Below are positions 1 to 35,623 of a stretch of DNA of 64,000 bases, in pieces. The DNA comes from Halorarum salinum (GTDB lineage Archaea; Halobacteriota; Halobacteria; Halobacteriales; Haloferacaceae). How positions within the stretch are numbered: position 1 is the first letter of the stretch; each line of letters opens with the position of its first letter. Both the position numbers and the translations under genes were made by a program. Location: the NCBI RefSeq assembly GCF_013402875.1, contig NZ_CP058579.1, positions 3,348,001 to 3,412,000 of the forward strand, read 5' to 3'. Below the pieces are notes generated by a model that saw only the letters and a program-made list of their open reading frames with translations, did not search any database and had not been told where the DNA came from.

Positions 1-79
1 AACCGATTGGTGGAAATCCAGAGGGAGGGTTCAGGACGAGTCTCTTAGAGATTCGATGTTCAAGACACCAAACTTTTAC

Positions 80-99
80 GTTGCTTGTTAACAAGTAAC
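80..99. repeat. 20-base imperfect palindrome
   Basis: A perfect 12-base core, CTTGTTAACAAG, sits at 84-95 and extends to 20 bases with one mismatched pair. Its symmetry suggests a site for a dimeric DNA-binding protein. No adjacent promoter or gene fixes its role. Confidence 0.5.
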
Positions 100-199
100 A
101 AAGTAAAAACTTCCTCTAGATACCCCTAATCCCCCCCTCCCCCCACCTTGGAAGCAGATTTGGTAGGGAGAAATCCCTATCCCTATGAATTCGGCAGAA

Positions 200-240
200 T
201 AAGGGGGGTCTGTAAGGGGTCTGTTCGGCACCCCCCCTTA
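200..240. repeat. G-run/C-run inverted repeat
   Basis: The left arm TAAGGGGGGT (200-209) pairs with the right arm ACCCCCCCTTA (230-240), apart from one bulged base. A 9-base direct repeat GGGGTCTGT (205-213 and 216-224) overlaps the left arm and the loop. It could be a hairpin or part of an origin-like region; function unknown. Confidence 0.4.
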
Positions 241-274
241 CCCCGGCATAGAAGGACTTAAGCAGTCGGAAGTC

Positions 275-388
275 TTACATATATTCGTTCAGAAACCGCC
301 ATCCTTCGTCGGGGTCGGCCATCTCTGGACGAGTCAATCTTGCTGGGAACCGGCGGGCGGGGAATCCCCGCTCGCTGCTCTCGTTCAC
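275..388 (-). CDS. possible 37-residue protein
   Basis: An open frame with a GTG start at 388 and TAA at 275-277 would encode 37 residues ending in a plausible coding-like tail (MADPDEGWRFLNEYM). The frame stays open upstream of 388 as far as a stop near 424, so the start is uncertain and this could also be the tail of a decayed gene. No family is recognised and no promoter decides the case. Low confidence. Confidence 0.3.
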   Translation of the reverse strand: MNESSERGFPARRFPARLTRPEMADPDEGWRFLNEYM

Positions 389-410
389 TTGCCTGAGCTG
401 TGGCTGCAGT

Positions 411-446
411 AGTACATCTGTGCGTCAGTACGCCAGTACATCTGTG
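411..446. repeat. pair of 12-base direct repeats
   Basis: AGTACATCTGTG occurs at 411-422 and again at 435-446, a spacing of 24 bases. Repeated sites at such spacing can be iterons or operator half-sites. Only two copies are seen, so the call is just a repeat. Confidence 0.45.
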
Positions 447-727
447 TGGTAATGCAGTTTACTGTCGAGGTGTCTATCCGGTAATCTTCCCAGCAATCCA
501 GTCAGACATACATCCAGATGTGCAGAAACAGAACCAGACAGAAGCAACGACGACAACCCGCGTGCAAGGATATCAGCAACGCACGCGGGCCAACAAGAAT
601 CCCAACCGAACGTGATGCAGTATCGACCAGGGCGGTCAATCGAGTGTGTTAGCTATCCTGTGTGCGACTCCCGGTGATGGGTCATCGCACGAGTATACCA
701 ACGCGGACTATCAGCATAAGCGGGGTC
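447..727. other. intergenic stretch, nothing recognised
   Basis: A plus-strand frame runs through 400-615 but has a weak GTG start, low-complexity threonine/asparagine content and no recognisable motif, so I do not call it. Otherwise no gene, RNA or clear structure is seen between the direct repeats and the small minus-strand gene that ends at 728. Confidence 0.4.
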
Positions 728-928
728 TCAACTCCCATCCTCATGCGGGATGACTAGGGCGTCTGTAGCCTCGTTCGTCGGTGTCCTCTGTAGCGAATCC
801 TTGAACTCTCGCCGCCGGAGGAACTCGTCAAAATCCTCTCCGAACACTTCCTCCACGTCCTCTTCGGTCGCTTCGCCTAGGCAGTACTGGCGGTACACCC
901 GTTCTTTCGCTTCCTCGTTGCCGGTCAT
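728..928 (-). CDS. small acidic protein of the mobile element
   Basis: A 66-residue protein, highly charged and predicted mostly helical in the first 45 residues (MTGNEEAKERVYRQYCLGEA...). The ATG at 928 is preferred over the longer frame up to 1102 because the extension has unlike composition and the sequence just upstream (TTTTACC about 22 bases ahead) can serve as a TATA element. The family is not recognised. A copy of the 16-base motif GTACATTTCCGCTGTA lies about 100 bases upstream on the same strand. Confidence 0.6.
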   Translation of the reverse strand: MTGNEEAKERVYRQYCLGEATEEDVEEVFGEDFDEFLRRREFKDSLQRTPTNEATDALVIPHEDGS

Positions 929-1026
929 GGCCAAGTCACTTGTTGGTAAAAGTGTTGACTCGTTCAAAGGCGTTTTGTCGGCTGTGAATAGAGGTATTCG
1001 AGTTCGAAACCAGTAGAGAATAGGCT

Positions 1027-1042
1027 TACAGCGGAAATGTAC
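1027..1042. promoter_or_regulatory. 16-base motif, copy 1
   Basis: TACAGCGGAAATGTAC on the plus strand, identical to 2252-2267 and close to 2274-2289. It lies in the divergent gap between the minus-strand gene starting at 928 and the plus-strand gene starting at 1126. A protein-binding site is the simplest reading; the binding protein is unknown. Confidence 0.5.
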
Positions 1043-1125
1043 GCTTGAACCGGTTCTGAGACCAGTATCTAACGAACACATGGTAAATCTGAAATATAAC
1101 AAGGACCGGTGAGTGGGTCGTCCTG

Positions 1126-1353
1126 ATGGAGCTTGATATCACCGGCGAGGGTGGATACTCCGACCTGACGATGGGACTCGATGCGACTACGACGCTGGCC
1201 ATCATCCCTACTGAGACGCAGGTCCGGGTGAGCCTCACATCACGTGCCGGTCACGGAGAGATGGGTCTTGGCGTCGGTCTCACTGCAGAGGAGGCGCGGG
1301 ACGTGGGCGAGCAACTCCTCGCTCACGCGACCCTTCTGAACGAGAACGATTAA
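1126..1353 (+). CDS. hypothetical 75-residue protein
   Basis: A short protein with a beta-rich first half (residues 1-40) and a helical end (TAEEARDVGEQLLAHATLL). The 'EEARDVGEQLL' segment resembles haloarchaeal small proteins in which a strand-rich part is followed by one long helix, but I cannot assign a family. It is 26 bases upstream of the HEPN-motif gene, same strand, so the two are probably co-transcribed. It could be a partner (for example an antitoxin) of that protein, which is inference only. Confidence 0.6.
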   Translation: MELDITGEGGYSDLTMGLDATTTLAIIPTETQVRVSLTSRAGHGEMGLGVGLTAEEARDVGEQLLAHATLLNEND

Positions 1354-1379
1354 ATAAATGACAACGCACTGGGCAGACA

Positions 1380-2084
1380 ATGAAAATGAAACTCAGCTTC
1401 TCACCTGTTCATCTTCACGCCGCGAAAGCTCTCTCTTTGGAGGTGGAGGAGATTGAAGCAGCGTTAGCCCAGGGGGAGGAAGATGAGTTCGCAAAAGGAG
1501 AGATACCCGTACGGATGATTCATGATGGCTATGCAGCTAATGCCATCATCAGTTCGACCGCGTTCTTGGAAGCCTCTGTCAACGAGGTCTTCGATTTAAT
1601 GATGACCGCAGCCGAAGGGTGGGAAAGAGCTGGAAAAGATTGGACCGGCACCATGGACGGGGAAGTAATCCTCTACCGTGTGTTACTCGGACTTCGTGAT
1701 GTTGACAAGTATTGGTTCAAGAACAAGAACTCGTTGAAGAAGTATCAACTCCTACTTGTTCACACCGGACGTGAACCCTTTGACACAGGGGAAGGGCTCT
1801 ACCAGCGCGTCAATACGGTCCGTAGATTGCGAAACGACCTCATTCACTTTGAGCCAGATTGGTATGACAGTAAGGAGGAAATCAGTCCACCTGGAAGCAT
1901 CCCGAATGGCTTGGATTTCAATCCATTCTATGAGACAACCCGTGACCCGAAATCCTTCCTTTCTCACGAGATTGTGGATTGGGCCATCGAATCCTGCGCA
2001 CTATTCGCTCTTGAGTTCCGCCGTCGATTGGACATTGAACATTCTGGCATGGAGGACTCGATAGAACAGCTACTGGCGGAGTAA
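1380..2084 (+). CDS. HEPN-motif protein, putative RNase
   Basis: A 234-residue helical protein. Residues 151-156 read RNDLIH, a match to the R-x4-6-H signature that forms the RNase active site of HEPN domains in toxins and defence proteins, and the following HFEPDW is typical of stand-alone HEPN proteins. Helices at about 45-80 and 95-130 fit the HEPN bundle. It belongs to a mobile element, follows a 75-residue ORF by 26 bases, and its 3' end faces a 33-residue ORF two bases away. A toxin or abortive-infection role is inferred from motif and context; substrate unknown. Confidence 0.6.
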   Translation: MKMKLSFSPVHLHAAKALSLEVEEIEAALAQGEEDEFAKGEIPVRMIHDGYAANAIISSTAFLEASVNEVFDLMMTAAEGWERAGKDWTGTMDGEVILYRVLLGLRDVDKYWFKNKNSLKKYQLLLVHTGREPFDTGEGLYQRVNTVRRLRNDLIHFEPDWYDSKEEISPPGSIPNGLDFNPFYETTRDPKSFLSHEIVDWAIESCALFALEFRRRLDIEHSGMEDSIEQLLAE

Positions 2085-2085
2085 C

Positions 2086-2187
2086 TCAGTCGTTACGGAG
2101 GTCACAGCCGCTGGAAGTGTGTGCATGGAGGTACTCTATCACGGTATCCACGGCGGAGTCCGGGGTGACAGTGATGTTCTCAGGCAT
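2086..2187 (-). CDS. possible 33-residue acidic protein, tail-to-tail with the HEPN-motif gene
   Basis: ATG at 2187 and TGA at 2086-2088 give MPENITVTPDSAVDTVIEYL plus 13 residues. A TATA-like CATATCA lies about 24 bases upstream, as for leaderless haloarchaeal genes, and two copies of the 16-base motif lie 65-100 bases upstream on the same strand. The arrangement repeats that of the gene starting at 928. It ends two bases past the HEPN-motif stop. No family is recognised. Confidence 0.35.
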   Translation of the reverse strand: MPENITVTPDSAVDTVIEYLHAHTSSGCDLRND

Positions 2188-2251
2188 GGACTGATGTCAC
2201 TCGGTGTTGATATGTGTTTTGTGGTCATTTGAACGAACGAAATGAATGCTA

Positions 2252-2267
2252 TACAGCGGAAATGTAC
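2252..2267. promoter_or_regulatory. 16-base motif, copy 2
   Basis: TACAGCGGAAATGTAC, identical over 16 bases to copy 1. It lies upstream of the 33-residue ORF and 22 bases from copy 3, about two helical turns, which suits binding of two protein units on one face of the DNA. Confidence 0.5.
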
Positions 2268-2273
2268 ACTCGT

Positions 2274-2289
2274 TACAGCAGAAACGTAC
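2274..2289. promoter_or_regulatory. 16-base motif, copy 3
   Basis: TACAGCAGAAACGTAC differs from copies 1 and 2 at two positions. It sits 22 bases from copy 2 and 14 bases past the stop of the minus-strand membrane-protein gene at 2303. Confidence 0.45.
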
Positions 2290-2302
2290 TCTTCGATTAC
2301 TG

Positions 2303-2602
2303 CTATGGGCGTAGACTCAGGTACGCCTCTTCGAGTTCGTCAATGATGTCGCCCATTGAGTAGTTCGTGTGATGGGCGACTTGAGCTATCCACATTACCG
2401 AAACGACGTACCAGACCCATAGTGGTAGCGATAGTGCAGGAGTGTGTGAGAGTGGGAGCGCGAAGATATTGAGTTTGATTGCAAGTACGATTTTAGCCAA
2501 TGTGAACATGTCCCCTCCAGCCGATATCATAGCGAGCAACCACGCGACCACGATGTTAGTTCCGGCGGGCGGCCCCGACCGCGCGTCTGACGTGCCCATC
2601 AA
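2303..2602 (-). CDS. small membrane protein
   Basis: A 99-residue protein with two or three hydrophobic segments (about residues 16-32, 34-52 and 59-77) and an acidic C-terminal helix (IIDELEEAYLSL). It belongs to a run of small membrane proteins of the element (2303-4876). No family recognised. A start at the second Met of the MM pair is equally possible. Confidence 0.5.
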   Translation of the reverse strand: MMGTSDARSGPPAGTNIVVAWLLAMISAGGDMFTLAKIVLAIKLNIFALPLSHTPALSLPLWVWYVVSVMWIAQVAHHTNYSMGDIIDELEEAYLSLRP

Positions 2603-2652
2603 CTACGCTCGTCGGTTCCTGGGCGACACGGATTCGGTTATAATCGGACAGA

Positions 2653-2985
2653 CTACTCCTCTTCTGACTCAGCCTCGGCTTCATTACTATACTCCACCGA
2701 TGCCTTTGCTACAGTCGGAGTAGCGGTCACATGTACTGTCTCGGCACTCACAGTAATACGTCTCCCAATTTCGACGAGAAGTAGGACGGTGATTGAAAAC
2801 CCGATGATGGGCAGACCGAACGGAATCCCAAGTGCGAATGCAATCACTCCGGCAAGCCCCAGCAGTAGGTCTGCGGCCACCAGCGCCTGTTTCGACCTCT
2901 TGAGCCGGCCATACCAAGGGTCGGGAACGACTACTATCGGTCTATACCCGTTGCGTTTGAATCCTACGCCGCCAATTCGGACCAT
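2653..2985 (-). CDS. small membrane protein with two membrane segments
   Basis: A 110-residue protein: a basic N-terminal part (residues 1-32), two membrane segments (about 34-54 and 56-76), a strand-like stretch and an acidic tail. The start at 2985 is chosen over a longer frame because the longer N-terminus overlaps the divergent gene. Its start codon lies inside the left arm of a perfect 12-base inverted repeat (2974-3015), so it may be controlled there. Function unknown; a virion or envelope protein is one possibility. Confidence 0.55.
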   Translation of the reverse strand: MVRIGGVGFKRNGYRPIVVVPDPWYGRLKRSKQALVAADLLLGLAGVIAFALGIPFGLPIIGFSITVLLLVEIGRRITVSAETVHVTATPTVAKASVEYSNEAEAESEEE

Positions 2986-3015
2986 TCTATTAGCACATAC
3001 TGGATGGTCCGAATT
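2974..3015. promoter_or_regulatory. perfect 12-base inverted repeat in a divergent promoter region
   Basis: AATTCGGACCAT (2974-2985) and ATGGTCCGAATT (3004-3015) are exact reverse complements with an 18-base spacer. The left arm includes the start codon of the minus-strand gene and the right arm abuts the TATA element of the plus-strand gene. This suits an operator that controls both genes. Confidence 0.6.
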
Positions 3016-3016
3016 C

Positions 3017-3024
3017 TTATTAAA
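3017..3024 (+). promoter_or_regulatory. TATA box of the 3046 gene
   Basis: TTATTAAA ends 22 bases ahead of the ATG at 3046, the spacing expected for a leaderless archaeal transcript. Because the element is nearly symmetric it could also serve the divergent gene. Confidence 0.55.
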
Positions 3025-3045
3025 TTCGAATAGGATGTTCCCACT

Positions 3046-3507
3046 ATGATACCGAATCCCGTTCAAGCGATTGCGGACTTTATCAACTCGGCCCTTGCTC
3101 CGATACCGGGCTTCGCCCGGGGGTATGTCGTTATCCTCGGGTTGGGGGCGGTTTTCTGGGCTCTCGGCGCGTTCACAGAGGAGTCCTCGGATGATGCAAT
3201 CGGCCAAATCAGACAGGGCATCAGTGTGTCAAGTTCCGGCCTGAATCGGTTTGCTGAAGTCTCTGCTCCGTTGGTTTCATCCGGGACGATGGTCGGCGGG
3301 AAGACGCTCGCCAGCGTGACTGGTTCCGTAGGGCGCGAGATGTGGAGACGGGGGAGTACCCTCGTTGAGGTAGAAGAGGCTCCCATCAAAGTTGGTCCCC
3401 TCGTGGAAATTTACGGAGTCAGAATCGGCCTGATTGGACTCTTGGTTGGTCTTCTCGGCTTCGGTGGTTTGGCGGCGTTAGCTGGTGGGATTCCGCTTGT
3501 ACCATAG
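3046..3507 (+). CDS. membrane protein with a soluble middle region
   Basis: A 153-residue protein with an amphipathic start (residues 1-22), a first membrane segment (about 26-44), a serine/glycine-rich middle (50-115) and a second membrane segment (about 125-148). The ATG is supported by the TATA box 22 bases upstream. It is 49 bases ahead of the next membrane-protein gene. No family recognised; function unknown. Confidence 0.6.
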   Translation: MIPNPVQAIADFINSALAPIPGFARGYVVILGLGAVFWALGAFTEESSDDAIGQIRQGISVSSSGLNRFAEVSAPLVSSGTMVGGKTLASVTGSVGREMWRRGSTLVEVEEAPIKVGPLVEIYGVRIGLIGLLVGLLGFGGLAALAGGIPLVP

Positions 3508-3528
3508 TGACGTACATCGGCATGAGAA

Positions 3529-3535
3529 CTATATG
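3529..3535 (+). promoter_or_regulatory. TATA box of the 3557 gene
   Basis: CTATATG lies 22-28 bases ahead of the ATG at 3557. An imperfect inverted repeat around ACTATATG and CATAGT (3528-3547) overlaps it and may be a control site. Confidence 0.45.
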
Positions 3536-3556
3536 TTGACTACATAGTGGGTTGAT

Positions 3557-4069
3557 ATGCTCACAGAATTCCTCGGCCAGCACGCCGGATACGTACTTCC
3601 GCAGCTCGCCCTCCTCCTCATCGGGTTCTTCGTCGAGAAGTATTACGTGAGCCGAGTGACGGTCTTGACCAACTCGACGGCGGTAGTTGTTCACGTCATA
3701 TCTCAACCGAACGCCGGTCCCATCTTGGGATTGTATGCGGACTTTGGGCTCGCTCTCGGCGTGTGGGGATTCGCTCATTACGTCCTCGAAGAGAGAAATG
3801 GGGACATCTTTCGGACACTCTCGTTCTTCCTCTACAGTTCTACCAACGTGGCCATCCTCATTCTGACCAGCTCGTTACTCTATGCGGTCGTTGGCGGTGC
3901 ACTCGTACAACTGGGGATGGTCCTTCTGGTCGGGGGCGGTACGCTCTCCTACTTCGGCCCGTACTCGTTTGATGTCCAGTACTTCATCAAGAACGAGTCA
4001 ATACCGTTGTACGACCCCACCAGCCAGCGAAACATCCGCGTCGGGTTGACCGATTACTTCGACACGTAG
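3557..4069 (+). CDS. multi-spanning membrane protein
   Basis: A 170-residue protein with about four hydrophobic segments (roughly residues 9-27, 53-73, 88-108 and 113-135) and a polar C-terminal 35 residues. Own promoter signals precede it. It looks like an integral membrane protein of the mobile element, but no transporter motif or known family is visible. Confidence 0.6.
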   Translation: MLTEFLGQHAGYVLPQLALLLIGFFVEKYYVSRVTVLTNSTAVVVHVISQPNAGPILGLYADFGLALGVWGFAHYVLEERNGDIFRTLSFFLYSSTNVAILILTSSLLYAVVGGALVQLGMVLLVGGGTLSYFGPYSFDVQYFIKNESIPLYDPTSQRNIRVGLTDYFDT

Positions 4070-4112
4070 GGCGGACCCAGATGGCCGATATGTGGAACTA
4101 ATTCGACCCGCG

Positions 4113-4436
4113 TCAGAGGTCGTCGGCGTCCTGATTCTCGTCGAGATACTCTTCCATCGGCGGTGTCTCAAATTCGTCGCCCTCGTCTCGCTCGGGAAGT
4201 TGCTCGCGTCCGAGGTCGTCCATATCTCCAAACAGCGCCTCGCCCGCGTCGAGATTCAGTGTCCCCTCCCAGTCGTCCCGACCTGTCGTAGAAGTGAGAC
4301 CGTCGTGGAACCGCCCCCACGCGCGCCGGAGTTCTCGACTATCTAACTCTGCGCCGACCTCGCACGTCTCCAGTGGCCCATTGGGGTCGGCATCGTCCAT
4401 ATCGAACACGTGAAGGCGAACTGTACGATACGTCAA
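4113..4436 (-). CDS. acidic hypothetical protein
   Basis: 107 residues, very acidic, starting with a strand-like TYRTVRLHVFD. The frame opens with TTG at 4436; an internal ATG at 4400 is the other candidate, but it would remove the only structured-looking segment. The C-terminal 40 residues look disordered (EQLPERDEGDEFETPPMEE). No family recognised. Confidence 0.5.
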   Translation of the reverse strand: MTYRTVRLHVFDMDDADPNGPLETCEVGAELDSRELRRAWGRFHDGLTSTTGRDDWEGTLNLDAGEALFGDMDDLGREQLPERDEGDEFETPPMEEYLDENQDADDL

Positions 4437-4494
4437 GTTTGTAGTCGGTCATAATCGCTTCAACGAGGAGCAAAGGCAAAAGAGCGCCGCGCGG

Positions 4495-4737
4495 TCAGAA
4501 GCCGTCTTGGAGACATGCGATGACAACGATTGCGGCCCCGAGAGCGCCGGGTACGAGCCACGGGAGGGTAGTCACCACCGTCTCAATGAGTTTCCCCTGG
4601 AGGGGATAGAACGGGTCGCCCGGTTGGAGGGCGGCGGACGAGGCGAGGAGCGTATCGAAGAAGGCGATAACGACCAACGCCATGATGGTAGTCCCAACCG
4701 CGCCGACGACGAACTGGATGATTCGGTCCCCGCTCAT
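4495..4737 (-). CDS. small protein with two membrane segments
   Basis: 80 residues from ATG at 4737. Membrane segments at about residues 8-29 and 56-76 are joined by a short proline-rich loop (ALQPGDPFYPLQG). The longer frame to 4857 is rejected because its added part has no membrane-protein character. Such two-helix proteins occur in archaeal viruses and conjugative elements, but no family is recognised here. Confidence 0.6.
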   Translation of the reverse strand: MSGDRIIQFVVGAVGTTIMALVVIAFFDTLLASSAALQPGDPFYPLQGKLIETVVTTLPWLVPGALGAAIVVIACLQDGF

Positions 4738-4807
4738 ACGCGGACCGAGTATGTTAGCTACTAAAACAGTACTGCGTGACGGTGTATCATCGGGATGCCC
4801 GCTAGAG

Positions 4808-4876
4808 TCAAAATGCCACGATGAGCGCGGCGGTCGAGATGACTGTGCCGAGTACAAGGTGGCCGACAGTCATCAT
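4808..4876 (-). CDS. possible 22-residue single-helix membrane peptide
   Basis: ATG-ATG at 4876 and TGA at 4808-4810 encode MMTVGHLVLGTVISTAALIV plus AF, a hydrophobic stretch of membrane-spanning length and nothing else. A short G-run lies just upstream. It is 70 bases ahead of the two-helix protein gene on the same strand. The bias towards a pure membrane helix argues for a real product, but the size leaves this uncertain. Confidence 0.3.
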   Translation of the reverse strand: MMTVGHLVLGTVISTAALIVAF

Positions 4877-4986
4877 TCAATCCCCTGAACCATCCGCAGG
4901 TGCCATTCGAAAACGGTCATGTCGACCCGTTCAAGGACGGAGGTCTGCACCGTGGGGATTTAGCCCAGGGATTCTGAAACCACAGT

Positions 4987-5217
4987 ATGCACCGCTTCGA
5001 CAAGGGCGACCGCGTCAGCATCGATATCCCTGATAAAACTGACCCTGATTTCGACCAGTGGCATGGGGAGACCGGTGAGGTCGTGGAGGTCATCGAAGAT
5101 GATGCGGGCGATTCCACGGGCGATGAACGGGACTCGGTGATACTCCGCGTTGAGCTTGATTCGGGCGAGAATGTGGACTTTCGATGGCGAGACCTTCGTC
5201 CTGCGGGGAGCGCCTGA
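4987..5217 (+). CDS. small SH3-like haloarchaeal protein
   Basis: 76 residues, FDKGDRVSIDIPDKTDPDFD followed by an acidic stretch and ending in DFRWRDLRP. The pattern G-D-x-V ... G-E-V-V-E-V ... V-E-L-D-S-G-E is that of a small SH3-like/KOW-type barrel. I recognise it as a widespread haloarchaeal family of unknown role, from memory rather than a search. It is 33 bases ahead of the methyltransferase gene on the same strand, so it may be co-expressed with the restriction-modification system. Confidence 0.65.
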   Translation: MHRFDKGDRVSIDIPDKTDPDFDQWHGETGEVVEVIEDDAGDSTGDERDSVILRVELDSGENVDFRWRDLRPAGSA

Positions 5218-5250
5218 TACACCGGGTATTTGTAGGACCAGATTCTCGGT

Positions 5251-6933
5251 ATGAGTAACGTGGCTTCGGAACGGAAACAACACGGACAGACCTACACTCC
5301 AGAACCCGTTTCGTCTTTCCTCGTAGAGTGGGCTGTCCGTGATTCGGGTGATACGGTACTGGAGCCCTCGGTCGGAGAGGGTCGGTTTGTATTCGATGCG
5401 TATGACCGCTTGCGAGACCTCGGGGCATCACAGGACGCCGCCCGGGAGCAAATCTATGGTACGGACATTGACGACGAGGCCGTAGAAATCCTACAGTCCT
5501 CGGCGCGTGAGAGTACCGGCGCAGAGTTCTCAAACGTCGGCGTCCAGAATATCTTTGAGACGGACTTCCCGGAGGCGACCGCCCTCGTCGGGAATCCACC
5601 GTATGTCATCCGACATCGATTCGAAAACGCGGAGGACACCATCGAACAGTTCGCTGACCGGTACGATTTTTCCGACCAGAGCGACCTCTACGTATACTTC
5701 TTGCTTCGAGCGGCGGAGTTCCTCGCCCCCGGTGGGAAGATGGCGATGATTGTGTCGAATTCGTGGATGAAGCGGAAGTACGGCGAGGAATTCAAGCGAT
5801 TCCTTCTCAACGAGTTCTACGTCCACGGACTCCTCGGATTCCGTGAGCGCGTTTTCGGAGACCTCGTGAATAGTGTCTGTATCCTTGCAGAGAGGAGAGA
5901 GAACACCATTCGGATGCCCGCCACGAACGACGTGCGGTTCGTGCAGGCTGACAGTACGGATATCTTCAACGGGGACGACGAGAAGACTCTTGATGACCTG
6001 ACCGATGCGGCTGTGCAGGCCGCCCAGGTTCCCCAGCGCGCGCTCGAACCGGAGGACTACTGGGACATCTGGCTCCGCGCCCCGGATGTGTTTGAGGCTA
6101 TCAAGGGGAGCGACGATTTCGTCCCGCTGGCGGAGTTCGCAACCCCGATGATTGGCGTCCAGACGCTTGCCAAGGATTTCTACATCATCGAAGAGGGTGA
6201 CCCCGCGCGGGACGACATCGAAGACGAATACCTCCGCCCGATTGCCTATTCGTCCCGTGACCACCAGACGCCTGTCGTACGGGCGGAGGACTGCCCTTAC
6301 CGCGTCTTCTGGTGCCCGAAGGCGAAGGAGGAACTGGAAGACACTGCCGCACTGGAGTACATTGAAGCGGCGGAGAATCGGACGGTGGAGAAGCGATACA
6401 GCGACGAGACGTACGATGGTCTCCACAACAAGACACGTATCCGCAGCGCCAGTCGTGACCCGTGGTACGATATGACCAGTGAGGCCGAGAGTCGTCTTCC
6501 TTCCGAGATTCTACTCCCTCGGCGTGTGTACGAGAATTACACCGCCGTCTGGAACGCAGATGCCGTGGTGCCGAACGAGAATTTCCTCGCCACGACCGTC
6601 AAAGACCTGCGTCACCTCAAGCCGCTTCTCGCCTACTTGAATTCCCATCTCGGGGAATTGAACCTCCGCCTCGCCGGGCAGGTCTACGGCGGCGGCGTGT
6701 GCGACTTGAACGTCTCCTCCTCGAAGACCATCCAGACGATTGACCTCGAAGCGCATTCCGATGCTGAGCTAGAGACGCTGGCCGAAGCGTTTGACGAGTT
6801 CATGGCGTCGGAGGACAGGGATGTCCTCGACGAAGCCGTATATACTGTTCTCGGCTTCAGCAACGTGGAGCGAAAAGAGATTCAGGAGGCGCTCGACCTT
6901 GCCATCGAAGATTCGCTCAGCAAAGGCAACTAG
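5251..6933 (+). CDS. type II N6-adenine DNA methyltransferase (TaqI-like)
   Basis: 560 residues. It transfers methyl groups from S-adenosylmethionine to adenine in a DNA recognition site. Motif I (EPSVGEG, residues 38-44) binds the cofactor, GTDID (70-74) is motif II and NPPY (115-118) is the catalytic motif IV, in the order of gamma-class N6-adenine methyltransferases. The C-terminal third, including HLKPLLAYLNSHLGELNLRL, resembles the TaqI-like target recognition domain. Its stop codon and that of the convergent nuclease share the CTAG at 6930-6933. Together they form a type II restriction-modification system; the recognition sequence cannot be read from the protein. Confidence 0.9.
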   Translation: MSNVASERKQHGQTYTPEPVSSFLVEWAVRDSGDTVLEPSVGEGRFVFDAYDRLRDLGASQDAAREQIYGTDIDDEAVEILQSSARESTGAEFSNVGVQNIFETDFPEATALVGNPPYVIRHRFENAEDTIEQFADRYDFSDQSDLYVYFLLRAAEFLAPGGKMAMIVSNSWMKRKYGEEFKRFLLNEFYVHGLLGFRERVFGDLVNSVCILAERRENTIRMPATNDVRFVQADSTDIFNGDDEKTLDDLTDAAVQAAQVPQRALEPEDYWDIWLRAPDVFEAIKGSDDFVPLAEFATPMIGVQTLAKDFYIIEEGDPARDDIEDEYLRPIAYSSRDHQTPVVRAEDCPYRVFWCPKAKEELEDTAALEYIEAAENRTVEKRYSDETYDGLHNKTRIRSASRDPWYDMTSEAESRLPSEILLPRRVYENYTAVWNADAVVPNENFLATTVKDLRHLKPLLAYLNSHLGELNLRLAGQVYGGGVCDLNVSSSKTIQTIDLEAHSDAELETLAEAFDEFMASEDRDVLDEAVYTVLGFSNVERKEIQEALDLAIEDSLSKGN

Positions 6934-7922
6934 AGTTCGGCCTCGTGCTGGTACACAAAGTTTTCTCCGGCTGTCGCACCGAAATCCGTATCAATTATCC
7001 CGATAGCGCGTAGGTCGCCCGGGTGGTCGGACAACCAGACATACGAACCGCCACCAATTTTCATCAAATGCGTTCGGAAGCGACCCACGTCGGGGAACAT
7101 CGTAATGAAGACCACTCGGGGGCTGTCGGGGCCAGCCGAACTGGCGCTCCAGCCGTCGATTCCTCGACGTGGTTCGCTCAGGTCAGCGAGGAGTGTCTCG
7201 ATGCGCTGGTCGGTGAACGGCCCACGGCTCGTCACGGATTCTAGCAGGTAGAGGACGCCGTTTGCCTCATCGTAGGCGATGGCGTCCGGGTACACCGAGA
7301 GCCGGAATGAGAGGCCGTCGAACTCGATAGGGAGGAGCTTCTCAGTGATGTCCTCTCGCTCGGACTTATCCAACCCCTCGTGAACGAGAACGGGCGATTC
7401 CGCCAGTCGGGGTACGAGGTCTCGTAGCCCGTCGGCAATTAGTTCCGCATGTTCCCCTGCCGCACGGTGGAGCTCCTCGTCGTGGTACGGAAGCGAGACG
7501 GTTCGGCTACCGTCTTCCACGGGGTCGGGCTGACTGATGGCCTCTTCCAATTCCGCGTTGTCGAGGTATTCACGAACTTCTTGTGCAAGGAAGTAGTGCG
7601 TCTTCGGACTGTTCGGCACCGGCTCGTCGTATCCGAGGATTCCCTTGTCCCGGAGTGGTTTCAGCGCGTCTTTGCGTACGCTCTCCCGCGTGTTCTCTCG
7701 GTATCCGCCAGCTTCAATGATGGTTGTCGGCTGAAAAGCGTAATCGGGGAGGTTATATCGAGTATCGTACTCTTCGTAGAACTTTCGGGACGTGATGAGG
7801 CGCATCACTTCGAGCATCATCCCGTTCATCTCGCTCTTCTGAACGCCAAACTCTCGTAGAACCTGTCGAATCTGAGCCTCAGATAAGTCGTAATCAATGT
7901 CGTCCGCAGACTCGCCTGACAT
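6930..7922 (-). CDS. BsuBI/PstI-type type II restriction endonuclease
   Basis: 330 residues. The N-terminal half (about 15-130) resembles a winged-helix region. The C-terminal half carries the BsuBI/PstI nuclease signature: YPDAIAYDEANGVLYLLESV (211-230) followed by TSRGP, where D213 and E228 fit the PD-(D/E)xK-type active site. It would cut unmethylated DNA at the site protected by the neighbouring methyltransferase. Convergent orientation with a 4-base overlap implies separate promoters, as in other systems where methylase and nuclease are timed differently. Known PstI-family enzymes cut CTGCAG, but the site here is unknown. Confidence 0.85.
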   Translation of the reverse strand: MSGESADDIDYDLSEAQIRQVLREFGVQKSEMNGMMLEVMRLITSRKFYEEYDTRYNLPDYAFQPTTIIEAGGYRENTRESVRKDALKPLRDKGILGYDEPVPNSPKTHYFLAQEVREYLDNAELEEAISQPDPVEDGSRTVSLPYHDEELHRAAGEHAELIADGLRDLVPRLAESPVLVHEGLDKSEREDITEKLLPIEFDGLSFRLSVYPDAIAYDEANGVLYLLESVTSRGPFTDQRIETLLADLSEPRRGIDGWSASSAGPDSPRVVFITMFPDVGRFRTHLMKIGGGSYVWLSDHPGDLRAIGIIDTDFGATAGENFVYQHEAEL

Positions 7923-8001
7923 ATGAGCACCACATCAGTGGCAGTGCATGAACTTACCGGACTATTCAAATTCGATATGACCAGATAGAGGATGGGCCGA
8001 A

Positions 8002-9114
8002 TCAGAACGTCTGTTCTTCTTCTGGTGTCGCTGTTCGGAATCGTTGCCTAGCAGTTTCCCAATCCCCCTTTACGTAATCGAGAGTCGTATCGAATTTGGC
8101 ATGTCCAGCCATCATGCGTAGCGAGTTCAAATCCATACCTTCGTCGTCGTTCGCGTCATTAGCAAGAAATGTGATTCGTGAGTGGCGGAGTCTGTGAGCG
8201 GTGTACAACCACTGTTTCACGTCATCCCCACTACCAACGAGGGGTTCTTGGACGCCTGCATTGTGAGCGGCTCGCTTGACGATGCGCGACATCTCACTGG
8301 GAGACATCCGGTACAAGTCCTTTTCCGACCCGTTCTGTGATGTGACGAATAGGTACGGGCTGTCTCCAGCATTTGGATTCATCTGCTCTCGATGTGATTC
8401 CTTCCATCGGTACATCAGGTAGTCCAAGTTCGGCTCCCACCAGACGTGCCTGTAGTAGAGGTCGGGGTGGTCTTCAGGGTTTAACTTGGCCGAGCGGAAT
8501 TCGATATCTCGTTTGTCCCAATCGATGTTGCCGTAACGGAATCGACTCAATTCGTCGCCTCTAACCGCCGTCTGCCAGAAGAGGCGGATGATGAGTTCGT
8601 TCCGCGTTCGGGTCGCCGGATTCGACCCCGGGATATTCTCGGGTTCAACGAGGGGCTTGATTTTGTCGGGGCCGAGGGCGATGATGTCCTTCCGACCTTC
8701 CCGATACAGAACGGTCACGTAGTCGGACGTATTCTTAATGTCGTAGTCCTTCCGCAGGTTGATGTCCGTCGTCGGATTCCGTTCCAGTTTCCACTCAGCC
8801 TCCGCGTTGTGTTTGAGACCGTGGTAGTACTTTGAGACCGAGGCGACGCGACGGGTTATCGTGGGGTTGGCGTAGTTGTCCCGCTGGAGGTGCTGGATGT
8901 ACAGACGCACGTCGTCCTCCTCCACCGTCAACGGGTCAACGTCTTGTTGTTCACACCAGTAGAGCCACGCGCGGACTCCCGCCTTCAGGCGGTCCTGAGT
9001 CGTTTCTTTATCCACATTGAGCAGCACCCACTCAGCGTACTGTTCGTAGTGGTCGGTATTCTCCTCCAGTCTGTATTTCGCCTCAAACTGCCCCTTGTCG
9101 TTCCGTTCCATCAT
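8002..9114 (-). CDS. tyrosine recombinase/integrase of the element
   Basis: 370 residues. An N-terminal SAM-like core-binding domain (about 22-115) is followed by the catalytic domain (about 140-360) with R185 in AVRGDELSRF, H307-R-L-R310, H338 in AGHAKFDTTLDY and the nucleophile Y347. All expected catalytic residues are present. It should integrate and excise the element by site-specific recombination. Its ATG overlaps the stop of the upstream gene (ATGA), so translation is coupled. It lies near the right junction with secY, the usual place for an integrase gene. Confidence 0.92.
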   Translation of the reverse strand: MMERNDKGQFEAKYRLEENTDHYEQYAEWVLLNVDKETTQDRLKAGVRAWLYWCEQQDVDPLTVEEDDVRLYIQHLQRDNYANPTITRRVASVSKYYHGLKHNAEAEWKLERNPTTDINLRKDYDIKNTSDYVTVLYREGRKDIIALGPDKIKPLVEPENIPGSNPATRTRNELIIRLFWQTAVRGDELSRFRYGNIDWDKRDIEFRSAKLNPEDHPDLYYRHVWWEPNLDYLMYRWKESHREQMNPNAGDSPYLFVTSQNGSEKDLYRMSPSEMSRIVKRAAHNAGVQEPLVGSGDDVKQWLYTAHRLRHSRITFLANDANDDEGMDLNSLRMMAGHAKFDTTLDYVKGDWETARQRFRTATPEEEQTF

Positions 9115-9731
9115 CTATTCGCCTCCGGCTTCAACTCGTACCAGCGGCGCTCACCCTCGTCGATGACGCTGTAGATGTTGAGGTCTTCCTTATGTTCGAG
9201 AAACAAGCATGCCTGCCAGACGCGTATTGGGTCTTCTTCGAGGTGTGCAGTGATGTCATCTACCGTGCCAGAGAGCTTCGCTCGCTCATTCTCGGGGAGT
9301 GTCACACCCGAGTTTTTCAGGTCTACCAGTTCATCCGTTCCGCTGACCAACGGAAGTGTGTCGTGGACCCTGGTGGCGAATTTCTGTAACTCGTTACCCC
9401 TCAGTCGTTCGGCGGATACGCCGCCACCGGAGAGGGTGTCCAACTGCTCTTGAATCGCCGCCAGTTGGTCGGTGATGCCGTCGATGTCCTCGTCTAGGCC
9501 CGAGAGGTTGACCTCCACCCCGTCGGTCTCCTCTTCTTCATCTTCTTTGAGAATCCACACCCCGCTGAGGGCCTTATCCACGGTTTCTTCTATGAACGCT
9601 GATAGGTTCCCCCGGTGGTGTTCCTCCGCTTGTTCGAGCCACACCTTCTTTTTTCGCTTACTGATAGTGAGATGGACGTGCCGAGATACCTCTTCTAAGT
9701 CGTCGTCCACCTCGTCTTTTCTCTTCGCCAT
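9111..9731 (-). CDS. ribbon-helix-helix-like protein coupled to the integrase
   Basis: 206 residues. Residues 17-55 (HVHLTISKRKKKVWLEQAEE then NLSAFIEETVDKAL) match the strand-helix-helix layout of a ribbon-helix-helix DNA-binding domain. A coiled-coil stretch follows (about 80-100) and the last 90 residues look like a helical, possibly winged-helix, domain. It overlaps the integrase start by 4 bases. A role in integrase regulation or excision is inferred from this coupling. Confidence 0.7.
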   Translation of the reverse strand: MAKRKDEVDDDLEEVSRHVHLTISKRKKKVWLEQAEEHHRGNLSAFIEETVDKALSGVWILKEDEEEETDGVEVNLSGLDEDIDGITDQLAAIQEQLDTLSGGGVSAERLRGNELQKFATRVHDTLPLVSGTDELVDLKNSGVTLPENERAKLSGTVDDITAHLEEDPIRVWQACLFLEHKEDLNIYSVIDEGERRWYELKPEANR

Positions 9732-9857
9732 AGGACGCGTAGTCTATCTCCGGTAATGAGTGTTATCATCTTGTTGACAGAATCTACCCACATTTGGTGA
9801 GATGGATTAATCTACACGGATTGAGGCGAAGAAAAGACCGTGTTACAGGATGTTGGT

Positions 9858-31774: not shown

Positions 31775-32227
31775 GTGACGTCGTCAGGAGTCCTCGGCCC
31801 TGAGGCCGCAGTTCTCCTGGTCACCGCGGTCGTCACAGCCGTCGCGGTGGCTGGACCGCCTACCGGGGCCGCGCGGGCCGGGGGCGACGTGGAGGCAGCG
31901 ACGATCGACTCGCTGCCGTCCCGGACGACCGTCGGCGTCTCCGTGAACGCGTCGGCCCCGCTCTCGAACGTCACGGTTCGGAAGGTGACCGTCCCGGGAT
32001 GGTTCTCCGGGACCGTCTACGAGGACGTCTCCCACGTCGTCGTCCGGGACGGCCTCGCGACCGGGAACGGCGGAGGTGACTACGTCCTCGGCTCGCGCGA
32101 CGTCCGCCTGGAGAACGTCACGTCCACCGACAACGCGGTGGCCGGCGTCCGCGTCGAGTACTCCGGCGGGACCGCGACGAACGCCTCGACGTTCGGATGG
32201 CCGATCGACGCGACCCGTAGTCGGTCG
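31775..32227 (+). pseudogene. truncated secreted beta-helix-like protein
   Basis: From a weak GTG start the frame encodes a signal-peptide-like segment (AAVLLVTAVVTAVAVAGPP, about residues 11-29) and then strand-turn repeats (DVSHVVVRDGLATGNGG, DVRLENVTSTDNAVAGVRVE) as in parallel beta-helix surface proteins. After about residue 150 the frame turns into the antisense of the convergent surface-protein gene. The gene seems truncated or frameshifted at its 3' end. Confidence 0.45.
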
Positions 32228-32278
32228 GCGGGCGCCGTGTGGGCGAACCCGACGCGCCGGTCGACGTGGACGCGCCGA

Positions 32279-35200
32279 TCAGCGCCGGTCCCGGCGCTTC
32301 GACGCGACGAGGGCCGCGATCCCGACGAGTCCGAACGGGAACGACGGCGACCACGCGACCGATCCGAGCGCCGAGGCCAGCGCGAACATTTCGTCCGGTT
32401 CCTCCGTCTCGGTCGGCGTCTCGGTCGGCGTGTCAGTCGGCGTCTCGGTCGGCGTGTCAGTCGGCGTCTCGGTCGGCGTGTCAGTCGGGGTTTCAGTCTC
32501 CGTCGGCGTCGGGGACTCGGTCTCCGTCGGCGTCGGCGTGTCAGTCGGCGTCTCCGTCTCGGTCGGCGTCGGCGTCTCCTCGACGCCAGTACCCTCGAGC
32601 GTCACCTCGACGACCTCGTCGTCCGGGTCGTTCGTTTCGATCCCGAGCGTCGCCGCATGGTCGCCCGCTTCGGTCGGGGCGAACTCGACCTCGACGGTCG
32701 CCTCCTCGTCGGCCGGGACGTCCGACGGGACGTCGCTCACGACCGAGAACGCGTCCGAGTCGTCCACGGCCGCCGACGTGACCGAGAGCGGCGAGGTGCC
32801 GTCGTTGGCGATCTCCACCGTCAGCGTCTCGTCCGACCCGACGTCGACCTCGTCGTACTCGAGGTCGGTCGGGTCGACCGCCACCTCGGGTTCGCCGGCC
32901 GGGGTGGGCGAGGCGGTTTCAGCGGGCGTCGAGGGGGACGTCGTCGTCGCGTTCGGCGTTCCGGTCACGTCGGGCGTCCCTGTCGAGTCTGGCGTTCCGA
33001 TGACGTCGGGCGTCCCCGTGACGCCTGGCGTCCCGATCACGTCGGGCGTTCCGGTCACGTTCGGCGTTCCGATCCCGCCCGGCGTCCCGATCACGTCCGC
33101 CTCGGGCGAGAGCGTCCGGTTCGTCGACTCGTTCCGGGCCCGTCGCTCGATCTCCTCCGCGGACGCGCCGGCGTCCGCCGCCTGCACCCCCTGCTGGGAG
33201 CCCGAGAACGCGGCGGCCTGCAGGTCCGTCGCGTTCGACCCGTTCGAGACGGACGCGTTCGCGGCGCCGCGCGAGGAGCCGGCGGCCGCCGACTCGACGG
33301 ACGCGGCGTCGATGCCGGGCGTCGCGGCCGAGGCGTTGATCGCCCCCTCGGAGGCGCCCGAGGCCGCCACCTCGATCAACGCCACGTCGTCCACGTCCGG
33401 GTCGACGGCGGCGACGCCGACCGTGCCGTTGGCCGACCCGCTCGCGGCCGCCCGAACGATCTCGGGGGTCAGGTTCCGGACGTCAACGCCCTCGACGCTG
33501 TTGGCCCCCTGTGCCGCCCCCGAGGCCGCGGCCTCGATCACGGCCGGGCTGACCTCCGTGACGACGTCCTGGACGAGCGGGTCGCGGACGAGGGACCCGG
33601 AGATGGCCCCTACAGAGGCGCCGGACGACGCCGCCTCGACGAACACCACGCGGCTCGGGAACTCCCGTGAGGGCGCGGTGCCCACCGAGCCCCTGGCCGA
33701 CCCTCTCGCAGCCGACTGGACGATCTCGGGGCTCACGTCGACGGTGACGTCGCCCAGTTCGACGACGCCGTTCGCCGATCCCCTCGCGGCCGCCTGGACG
33801 ATCTCCGGGGTGACGTCGACGGTGACGTCGCCGACGTCGATCGCGCCGTTGGCGGCGCCCTCCGCGGCGTTCTGGATCACCTCCGGGCTGATGTTGACCT
33901 CGATGTCGCCGATCTCGATCGCCCCGTCCGACGCGCCGTAGGCCGCCGACTGGACGATCTCGGGGCTGATGTTGACGTCGATGTCCCCGATGTCGAGCGA
34001 GCCCGTGACCGCGCCCTCCGCGGCGTTCTGGACGAGCGTCGGGTCGATGTCGACGTCGATGTCGCCGATCTCGACGTCCGCCCTGTCGGTCGCCCCGTTC
34101 GACGCGCCGTAGGCCGCCGACTGGACGATCCTCGGGCTGACGTCGACGTTCACGTCCCCGACGTTGATCGCGCCGCGCGCGGACCCCTCGGCGGCGTTCT
34201 GGACGATCTCGGGGTTCACCTCCACGTTCACGTCCCCGACGCTGACGGAACCGCGCGCGGCGCCCAGGGCGGCGTTCTGGACGACCTCCGGACTGACGTC
34301 GACGGTGACGTCCCCGACGCTGATCGACCCCTTCGCCGCGCCGCGGGCGGCCCGCTGGGTGAGCTCGGGGTTCACCTCCACGTTCACGTCACCGACGCTG
34401 ATCGACCCCTTCGCCGCACCGTGGGCCGCGTTCTGCACGAGTTCCGGACTCACGTCCACCTCCACGTCCCCCACGTCGATCGCGCCCTCGGCCGCGCCCC
34501 GCGCGGCGTCCTGGACGATCCGGGGGTTCACCTCGACCTCGACGTCGTCGATCTCGAGCGACCCTTTCGCCGCGCCGCGGGCCGCGTTCTGGACGAGCTC
34601 CGGGCTCACCTCGACCTCGACGTCGTCGATCCCGATCGCGCCGCGCGCGGACCCCCACGCGGCACGCTGGACGAGGGTGGGGGTCACGTCGACCGCCACG
34701 TCGTCGACGCTGATCGCGCCGCGCGCGGAGCCCTCGGCGGCGTTCTGGACGAGCTCCGGGCTCACGTCGACCGCCACCTCGTCTATCTCGACCGCCCCGT
34801 AGGCGGCACCGAACGCCGAGTTCTGGACGATCTCCGGGCTCACCTCCACCGCCACGTCGTCGACCTCGATCGATCCCTTCGCGGCGCCCTCGGCGGCGTT
34901 CTGCACGATCTCCGGGCTCACCTCCACCGCCACGTCGTCGACGCTGATCGCGCCGACGACGGCGCCGCTACACGCGGCACGGAGCCGGTCGTGGGACGCC
35001 CCGAGCGTGACCGCCCCGGGGACCCTCGCGCGGGTCATACTCTCCTCCCAGGAGCCGACGAGCGACCCGTAGGCCGCGCCCTCGCCGGCCGCCTCGATCT
35101 GCTCCACGGTCGCGTTCTCGTTCCCGTACAGCGGGTGCGTGATGTTCAGCCCCTCGAGGACGCCCCCGATCACCGCCCGACGCTGCGCCGGCGTCACGTC

Positions 35201-35623
35201 CACGCCCGCGGCCGCCGCCCGTTCGATGCCGCGCCGGGCCCCTCGCCTCGCCGCCTCGGCTTCCTCCGGAGCCGGCTGCTCCCGGGTGACCGCGTTCGCG
35301 TTCAGCGGCGGCGGCGCCCCGGTCCGCGATTCGAACGCCGCGTCGACCGGGTCGAGGCCGCCGGCGACAGCGTCGAGGTCGGCGCTGGGGAGGGGAACGA
35401 CCGGGTCGAACTGCCGGACGTCGGCCGTAGTCGATCCGGCCACGGGATGTCGGTCGTCGACGGGATCCTCCCCCGGGGTCGCGGCCGGCGCCACGACGCC
35501 GGCGAGCGTGCTCGTCGCGACCAGCAGCACGACGCCGACGACCGTCAGCGACCCGGCGTCGACGGACGGTCCGCGCCGCGGGGTCGTCCCGTCGTCGTTC
35601 GGCGGTGATCGGTCGGGAATCAT
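32279..35623 (-). CDS. giant repeat-rich surface protein
   Basis: 1,114 residues. A signal or anchor helix (about 26-47) is followed by a helical region (85-220), then a tandem array of 26-residue repeats (224-644, 16 well-kept copies; consensus about GAIDVGDVTVDVSPEIVQNA then AxGAAx), degenerate copies (to about 833), GTPDV-type repeats (about 845-890), an Ig-like domain of the choice-of-anchor-D type (about 915-1010), a Thr/Glu/Pro stalk (1013-1075) and a C-terminal membrane helix with basic end (FGLVGIAALVASKRRDRR). The layout is that of a cell-surface protein anchored at its C-terminus. The repeat itself is not known to me. Confidence 0.85.
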   Translation of the reverse strand: MIPDRSPPNDDGTTPRRGPSVDAGSLTVVGVVLLVATSTLAGVVAPAATPGEDPVDDRHPVAGSTTADVRQFDPVVPLPSADLDAVAGGLDPVDAAFESRTGAPPPLNANAVTREQPAPEEAEAARRGARRGIERAAAAGVDVTPAQRRAVIGGVLEGLNITHPLYGNENATVEQIEAAGEGAAYGSLVGSWEESMTRARVPGAVTLGASHDRLRAACSGAVVGAISVDDVAVEVSPEIVQNAAEGAAKGSIEVDDVAVEVSPEIVQNSAFGAAYGAVEIDEVAVDVSPELVQNAAEGSARGAISVDDVAVDVTPTLVQRAAWGSARGAIGIDDVEVEVSPELVQNAARGAAKGSLEIDDVEVEVNPRIVQDAARGAAEGAIDVGDVEVDVSPELVQNAAHGAAKGSISVGDVNVEVNPELTQRAARGAAKGSISVGDVTVDVSPEVVQNAALGAARGSVSVGDVNVEVNPEIVQNAAEGSARGAINVGDVNVDVSPRIVQSAAYGASNGATDRADVEIGDIDVDIDPTLVQNAAEGAVTGSLDIGDIDVNISPEIVQSAAYGASDGAIEIGDIEVNISPEVIQNAAEGAANGAIDVGDVTVDVTPEIVQAAARGSANGVVELGDVTVDVSPEIVQSAARGSARGSVGTAPSREFPSRVVFVEAASSGASVGAISGSLVRDPLVQDVVTEVSPAVIEAAASGAAQGANSVEGVDVRNLTPEIVRAAASGSANGTVGVAAVDPDVDDVALIEVAASGASEGAINASAATPGIDAASVESAAAGSSRGAANASVSNGSNATDLQAAAFSGSQQGVQAADAGASAEEIERRARNESTNRTLSPEADVIGTPGGIGTPNVTGTPDVIGTPGVTGTPDVIGTPDSTGTPDVTGTPNATTTSPSTPAETASPTPAGEPEVAVDPTDLEYDEVDVGSDETLTVEIANDGTSPLSVTSAAVDDSDAFSVVSDVPSDVPADEEATVEVEFAPTEAGDHAATLGIETNDPDDEVVEVTLEGTGVEETPTPTETETPTDTPTPTETESPTPTETETPTDTPTETPTDTPTETPTDTPTETPTETEEPDEMFALASALGSVAWSPSFPFGLVGIAALVASKRRDRR
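33692..34954 (-). repeat. tandem array of 78-base coding repeats
   Basis: Sixteen tandem copies of a 26-codon unit, one of them lengthened to 31 codons. Each unit has alternating hydrophobic residues (strand-like, DVxVDV) followed by PE(I/L)VQNAAxGAA (helix-like). DNA identity between copies is high enough for slipped-strand or homologous changes in copy number. Confidence 0.85.

Follow-up and report, generated by a model that had tools for sequence, protein, structure and literature searches.

The window analyzed here is a stretch of 64,000 nucleotides from the genome of the archaeon Halorarum salinum (contig NZ_CP058579.1, positions 3,348,001 to 3,412,000). On its minus strand, at 32279-35623, lies an intact open reading frame (ORF) that encodes 1114 amino acids plus a stop, with its ATG at 35623. 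The G+C contents of its three codon positions are 0.72, 0.53, and 0.94 (GC3 0.94), the pattern of a coding frame in GC-rich DNA. Much of the encoded protein (here, the window protein) is an array of 26-residue repeats. Judged from its sequence, this repeat is absent from the family libraries tested, yet present in other halophilic archaea.

A first-pass annotation of this DNA had claimed sixteen well-kept and several degenerate copies of the 26-residue unit. Sixteen regular units, each exactly 26 amino acids long, are indeed found: units 1-11 at 34088-34945 (residues 227-512) and, beyond an insert of five amino acids, units 12-16 at 33683-34072 (residues 518-647). Over residues 227-647, the identity at a lag of 26 residues is 0.61, a value that 1000 shuffles do not approach, reaching at most 0.15. 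When the 16 units are placed in fixed register, six columns are invariant (V7, P11, Q15, A18, G20, and G24), and, averaged over pairs, the units are 60% identical as protein and 70% as DNA. On the C-terminal side come five or six degenerate units (33209-33682, approximately residues 648-805). On the N-terminal side, two or three weak units stand in a leader or cap (34964-35266, approximately residues 120-220).

The other features, all on the minus strand, complete the layout. Translation begins with a signal-like hydrophobic stretch, read by eye (35474-35623, approximately residues 1-50). The repeat domain closes with a C-terminal cap (33125-33211, approximately residues 805-833), which aligns with the relative L022: GAQEGVQAAATGASLQEIQQAAEQEA. 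Then come a GTPDV(T/I) hexamer linker (32950-33097, a period-18 array in which 6 aa, or 18 bp, repeat), an Ig-like domain of the ASH or choice-of-anchor D kind (32591-32893, residues 911-1011), a Thr/Pro/Glu stalk read from the sequence (32375-32584), and a hydrophobic C-terminal end that is not a PGF-CTERM (32282-32386), FALASALGSVAWSPSFPFGLVGIAALVASKRRDRR. The GTPDV repeats, Ig-like domain, and Thr/Pro stalk that had been claimed are therefore all present. The Ig-like domain exceeds the cut-offs of two models, PF15780 (E 1.2e-9, 38.6 bits against 27) and NF012200 (E 2.8e-14, 53.5 bits against 45). The window protein has this domain in common with choice-of-anchor D and ASH proteins; its repeat domain lies outside that family.

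A repeat family outside the libraries tested

The repeat had been described as not known. Pfam lists no family at E <= 1 over the repeat region of the window protein, and NCBIfam places there only ribosomal L10 (23.6 bits against 341) and CotG (20.7 against 28), both below cut-off. The repeats of relatives, seven of them scanned with Pfam and three of these also with NCBIfam, give nothing over cut-off. The PDB sequences offer no convincing match to the repeats of the window protein, where a single row falls at E 0.8. The stalk draws rows for AaBgIC and pectate lyase, and the hexamer linker draws one more; UipA (E 0.055) and DnaA (E 0.47), found with profile A2, are unconvincing. In PHROGs the repeat is unmatched, the three rows obtained being the Ig domain, the stalk, and the linker. 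A phage or virus origin was rejected, since the phage collection has no match, PHROGs does not match the repeat, and none of 46 pattern hits in viral_contigs was confirmed. As far as titles and the openings of abstracts disclose, none of the publications that a literature search brought up names the repeat. The description therefore holds for the libraries, but not in the sense that the repeat is confined to one protein. By these comparisons it is less singular than first proposed, because it belongs to a wider family.

Relatives (loci such as L007) carry two further unit types. In the Gln type, VTVEQIQxAAxGAAxGA units are combined with DUF7282 domains, as in L007, L015, and L016. These proteins are like the window protein in the putative helix of the repeat, the leader, the N-terminal hydrophobic stretch, and the large multi-domain layout. 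They differ in having Gln-rich linkers, units mostly of 21-27 amino acids, and DUF7282 where the window protein has its ASH domain. L007 is a paralog in the H. salinum genome itself, with 1219 amino acids, VTVEQIQxAAxGAAxGALxQxQ units, and two DUF7282 domains. The Asn type, NQNVNVNVVQNAAxGAAxGA, is found in L020, L022, L023, L026, and L027, and also, with 35-37% identity, on four plasmid records of Haladaptatus, three annotated as hypothetical protein and one as procyclic acidic repetitive family protein. Proteins of the Haladaptatus type (for example, WP_227378599.1) are the closest to the window protein, having the VQNAAxGAAxG helix and the C-terminal cap, but their linkers are Asn-rich and uncharged, their units have 21-26 amino acids, and the C-terminus is not hydrophobic in the five read by eye.

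When the whole window protein is compared with L007 by plain BLASTP, nothing aligns but the Thr/Pro stalk (E 0.001); a control with reversed and shuffled sequences was therefore run. Here, the 16 window units were scored against 37 relatives (32 of the Gln type, 5 of the Asn type), each of which was also reversed and shuffled five times. All 32 Gln-type relatives score, at 49-154 bits, as do all 5 of the Asn type, at 181-221 bits; the reversed and shuffled versions reach no more than 4.2 bits. Composition is thus not the cause of the similarity. As sequence evidence, the stalk-only alignment weakens the claim of a family and the control strengthens it.

Other comparisons agree. BLASTP with the whole window protein finds L015 (4e-31), L016 (5e-24), and L018 (5e-20), and hhalign between A3, a profile made from the window alone, and A5 gives a probability of 98.5 and E 2e-15. 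The A5 profile has 35 rows from 32 genes, L033/L051, L034/L053, and L048/L052 each being one place fetched twice. An alignment of A2 with A5 is circular, as these have rows in common, and the A3-A5 alignment and the reversed and shuffled control are the cleaner tests. The leader also recurs, by BLASTP in L020 (E 6e-11), L029 (E 5e-7), and L007 (E 2e-6). It scores 16.9-63 bits against all 32 Gln-type relatives, where reversed and shuffled versions reach at most 2.6 bits. Against the Asn type it is uneven (median -1.7 bits, maximum 33.4), being clear in L020 and not in all five. The tail, conversely, favors the Asn type, with 34-93 bits, over the Gln type, with 0-45; by BLASTP the degenerate units align with L022 at E 1e-13. 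Similarity beyond composition is thus joined by a common, if unevenly common, leader and tail. On this evidence the GAAxG-repeat family, comprising Gln, Asn, and window types, is real, and of the other two types the Asn type is the closer to the window protein.

How widely the family occurs can be stated as lower bounds, since each search scored candidates up to a limit per genome; each count includes the genome of the window itself. Of 392 genomes sampled from the order, at least 54 match the repeat query at E <= 0.001, in 19 of 95 genera, and several families of the order contain homologs. Profile A2 at E <= 1e-6 matches at least 20 of 392 genomes in a sample of the phylum, all 20 being from the same order or closer, and a longer query at E <= 1e-20 matches at least 9 of 391 genomes of the class. 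A match in G035 from an earlier scan did not recur in the scan of the order, and its locus, L017, was left unused for having too few core matches. A Gln-type query also matches a Halobaculum plasmid. No close ortholog of the window gene emerged from the genome samples, the aligned stretches of relatives being approximately 30-48% identical. Unit lengths in relatives are often shifted by 3-5 residues, with xGAA-like additions in several, as would be expected if helices grow by a turn.

Several members deserve separate mention. The Haladaptatus halobius member (L060:7593-9431, plus strand) sits on an 816-kb plasmid. L015:2839-8496 (minus strand), is a relative in a congener with a frame of 1886 amino acids, in which three stretches of DUF7282, together with a right-handed beta-helix of the NosD type, follow the repeat domain; the repeat is therefore combined with varied surface domains. 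L022, with L023 and L026, starts with a twin-arginine stretch (RRTVLSG or RRTILSG, by eye) where the window protein has RRGPSV, and this suggests export of the three by the twin-arginine route.

Fold of the repeat unit

The first-pass annotation had proposed that each unit is a strand followed by a helix, and that the units build an alpha/beta solenoid. Periodicity was examined on all 16 window units in fixed register; units of relatives were picked by a pattern that fixes several columns, and are biased in this respect. In positions 11-26 of the window units, hydrophobicity peaks with the period of a helix (P 0.001 relative to shuffled columns) but not with that of a strand (P 0.97), and variability behaves similarly (helical P 0.014, strand P 0.39). 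When the unit is drawn on a helical wheel with Ala17 at 0, the variable polar columns -5, -1, +2, and +6 fall within 60 degrees, on one face, while the Gly pair at +3 and +7 forms a GxxxG face. The invariant Pro is preceded, at position -7, by S, N, T, or D, a classical helix N-cap, and positions 13, 25, and 26 vary conservatively (I/L/V, A/S/V, and I/V/L/T). A helix bearing a GxxxG face is the probable structure of the unit's second half.

A structural model points the same way. For the relative L029, AlphaFold2 gives residues 1-190 a block-mean predicted local distance difference test (pLDDT) of 70-95, with helices only, one per repeat. Loops of 5-8 residues join the helices in this confident part, and there are no strands; 93 of 425 residues reach a pLDDT of 90, and the second half is poor. 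Several results count against a helical reading. Only 177 of the 425 residues of this model have a pLDDT of at least 70, and its linkers are shorter than those of the window protein. Window units 1-8 themselves (18 rows in the alignment) were modeled as a beta-solenoid, with a mean pLDDT of 53 and a range over five models from 53 to 24.5. In the biased selection of relatives' units, helical hydrophobicity is weaker (P 0.03 for the Asn type, 0.07 for the Gln type), and variability tends toward the strand angle (P 0.05 for the Asn type, 0.13 for the Gln type) more than toward the helical one (P 0.34 and 0.30). The confident helices of L029 are nevertheless given more weight than the beta-solenoid, although they model a protein other than the window protein, whose linker is longer.

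Neither model has a Foldseek match at E <= 0.001. In a VIA structure comparison, the nearest arrangements to the confident part of L029 are designed helical repeats (FD15 8ugc, DHR5/8/10/18). The flat repeat 8ugc leads with a Z of 9.6, below the level of about 13 that the tool associates with helical repeats. With a root-mean-square deviation of 7.3 over 193 residues, 17% identity, and an artificial origin, 8ugc suggests a common arrangement and not kinship. Other VIA rows, ammonium channels among them (Z about 4-7), were likewise taken as common helical arrangements.

The strand half of the proposed unit, and with it the solenoid, fares less well than the helix half, which hydrophobic periodicity and the L029 model both support. 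In a true alpha/beta solenoid, each unit would be a full turn, with its DVxVDV strand in a parallel sheet and the helices lying parallel on the opposite side. Positions 1-10 do alternate hydrophobic and polar residues, and a linker of approximately 11 residues could span a helix of 15. Even and odd window units are also alike, as expected if each is a full turn: even minus odd identity is -0.012 (P 0.82), so no two-unit, up-down periodicity is signaled, and among 13 relatives a nominal signal is confined to L007 (P 0.044) and L016 (P 0.032, 6 units). However, the strand-like alternation over positions 1-11 is not in itself significant (P 0.20, or 0.06 in the biased selection). Further, the L029 loops would mostly be too short to return along a 17-residue helix. 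A horseshoe like that of leucine-rich repeats would require a parallel strand and a helix in each turn, and on this the two models disagree, the one of low confidence being that of the window. An alpha/beta solenoid seems possible but doubtful.

More speculative, and rather unlikely, is the proposal that these proteins form a new natural class of solenoid, in which Ala/Gly GxxxG helices would pack at the spacing of parallel strands. The product would be an almost straight alpha/beta rod suited to high salt, whose linker would be acidic, Asn-rich, or Gln-rich depending on the haloarchaeon.

The alternative of a beta-solenoid, curlin-type or other, makes the 26-residue unit one coil of a beta-helix, the VQNAA stretch included. 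It would account for the AlphaFold2 model of the window units, the lean of relatives' variability to strand angles, and an alternation of residues that spans about 12 positions in each of the three unit types (columns read by eye). The low confidence of that model, however, and the weakness of its Foldseek matches, none of which reaches E 0.001, speak against such a coil, as do the GAAxG half of the window units, which is periodic like a helix, and the confident helices of L029. We regard it as unlikely.

In the arrangement that we favor, residues 11-25 of each unit would be a helix, N-capped by S, T, N, or D and then Pro, with one exposed variable strip. Because the GxxxG faces would allow neighboring helices to pack closely, an elongated stack would result. 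The valine-rich acidic segment joining the helices would be extended or strand-like.

Genomic surroundings of the gene

The neighbors of the window gene are genes for an EF-Tu-like GTPase and a DnaJ-domain protein, and pyrF. Two congeners keep these flanks, with about 90% DNA identity in the GTPase region and 88 and 90% protein identity in pyrF. In both, the interval between DnaJ and GTPase genes lacks the repeat gene; in one, it holds an unrelated ORF, which we take to be DoxX-like. Since the flanks are kept without the gene, and since no close ortholog emerged from the samples, the window gene is an accessory member of the GAAxG-repeat family. One congener also has, between pyrF and the DnaJ gene (L066 2845-4602, minus strand), a large ORF with membrane segments that looks like a sensor kinase by eye. 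The neighborhood therefore varies at more than one place.

Two other features of the window may be recorded. A convergent frame at 31775-32233 (plus strand) has a signal-like start and then VSHVVVRDGLATGNGGGDYVLGSRDVRLENVT; Pfam has no match to it at E <= 0.001, and it possibly encodes a small exported protein. At 1-9800, beside secY, the G+C content is 0.52-0.58, compared with about 0.65-0.73 over most of the rest, and a tyrosine recombinase (8002-9114, minus strand) and an Eco57I/N6 methylase (5251-6933, plus strand) are encoded. This is probably an integrated island with a restriction-modification-like gene.

Anchoring, location, and possible role

The H. salinum genome encodes archaeosortase A (ArtA; E 3.5e-95). 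The PGF-CTERM model of its substrates, TIGR04126, finds 13 places in this genome at E <= 1, nine of them over cut-off. At E <= 1 the model also fires in 11 of 14 control genomes, and over cut-off in 2, and only rows over cut-off were counted. The window protein is like these substrates in having a stalk, then a hydrophobic C-terminus and a basic end. It differs in lacking the PGF motif, and neither the direct scan of the protein nor that of its genome returns a PGF-CTERM row for it at E <= 1. As it lies outside the 13 places and is unmatched directly, the earlier remark that SFPFGL replaces the PGF tripeptide stands, in a genome that has both ArtA and PGF-CTERM matches.

A surface location fits the signal-like stretch, the Ig domain, the stalk, the hydrophobic C-terminus, and 14 N-glycosylation sequons. 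Export, adhesion, and function are read from this layout. With about equal confidence and doubt, we take the gene product to be an accessory surface protein, a rod or adhesin anchored in the membrane, whose putative helical repeat is absent from the libraries tested. The chain might be exported and then held by its hydrophobic end independently of ArtA. Stalk, Ig domain, and GTPDV linker might together lift the repeat off the membrane, so that a rod could project through the surface layer (S-layer), acting as a spacer or an adhesive surface.

Further results speak against this reading. Four 15-kb loci and the region 24000-46000 of the window show no partner gene common between genera. Of 40 ORFs of other members, moreover, 11 have a complete C-terminus, and only 2 of these, both from the same genus, show a hydrophobic C-terminal segment by eye; anchoring is therefore not general. 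Because most complete relatives lack this end, secretion is conceivable for the rest of the family, which might then serve in a matrix. In that alternative, the proteins would be a secreted, self-assembling matrix or an S-layer-associated polymer and not single-molecule rods, members without the hydrophobic C-terminus being the typical form. The nine others fit this, eight with low-complexity tails and one, L035, with an odd tail that may be a frameshift, as do the Asn- and Gln-rich linkers of relatives. The window protein and its two congeneric relatives, however, do have a hydrophobic C-terminal segment and basic residues at the end, and nothing observed points to assembly. A matrix is judged improbable.

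That the repeat is recently expanded, slippage-prone, and in the service of phase or antigenic variation is suggested by its tandem array, but is highly improbable: the units differ at nearly a third of their DNA positions, codon sharing between identical residues of separate units (0.65) hardly exceeds the expectation from codon usage (0.61), and hence shows no sign of recent expansion, and 8 ortholog pairs among relatives (106 unit pairs) retain unit-specific residues, for example at position +2 (0.65 against 0.16).

For the putative membrane-anchored rod, and for the family around it, the meaning is threefold. A family of repeat domains is missing from the libraries tested, though at least about one in seven genomes in the sample of the order carries a relative. 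With its non-PGF C-terminus in a genome that bears ArtA, the window protein offers a way to test whether anchoring at the surface can take another route. Last, because the same putative helix is kept while the linker shifts from acidic to Asn- or Gln-rich, the family would be a simple system in which to learn how long rods at the cell surface keep their fold in concentrated salt.

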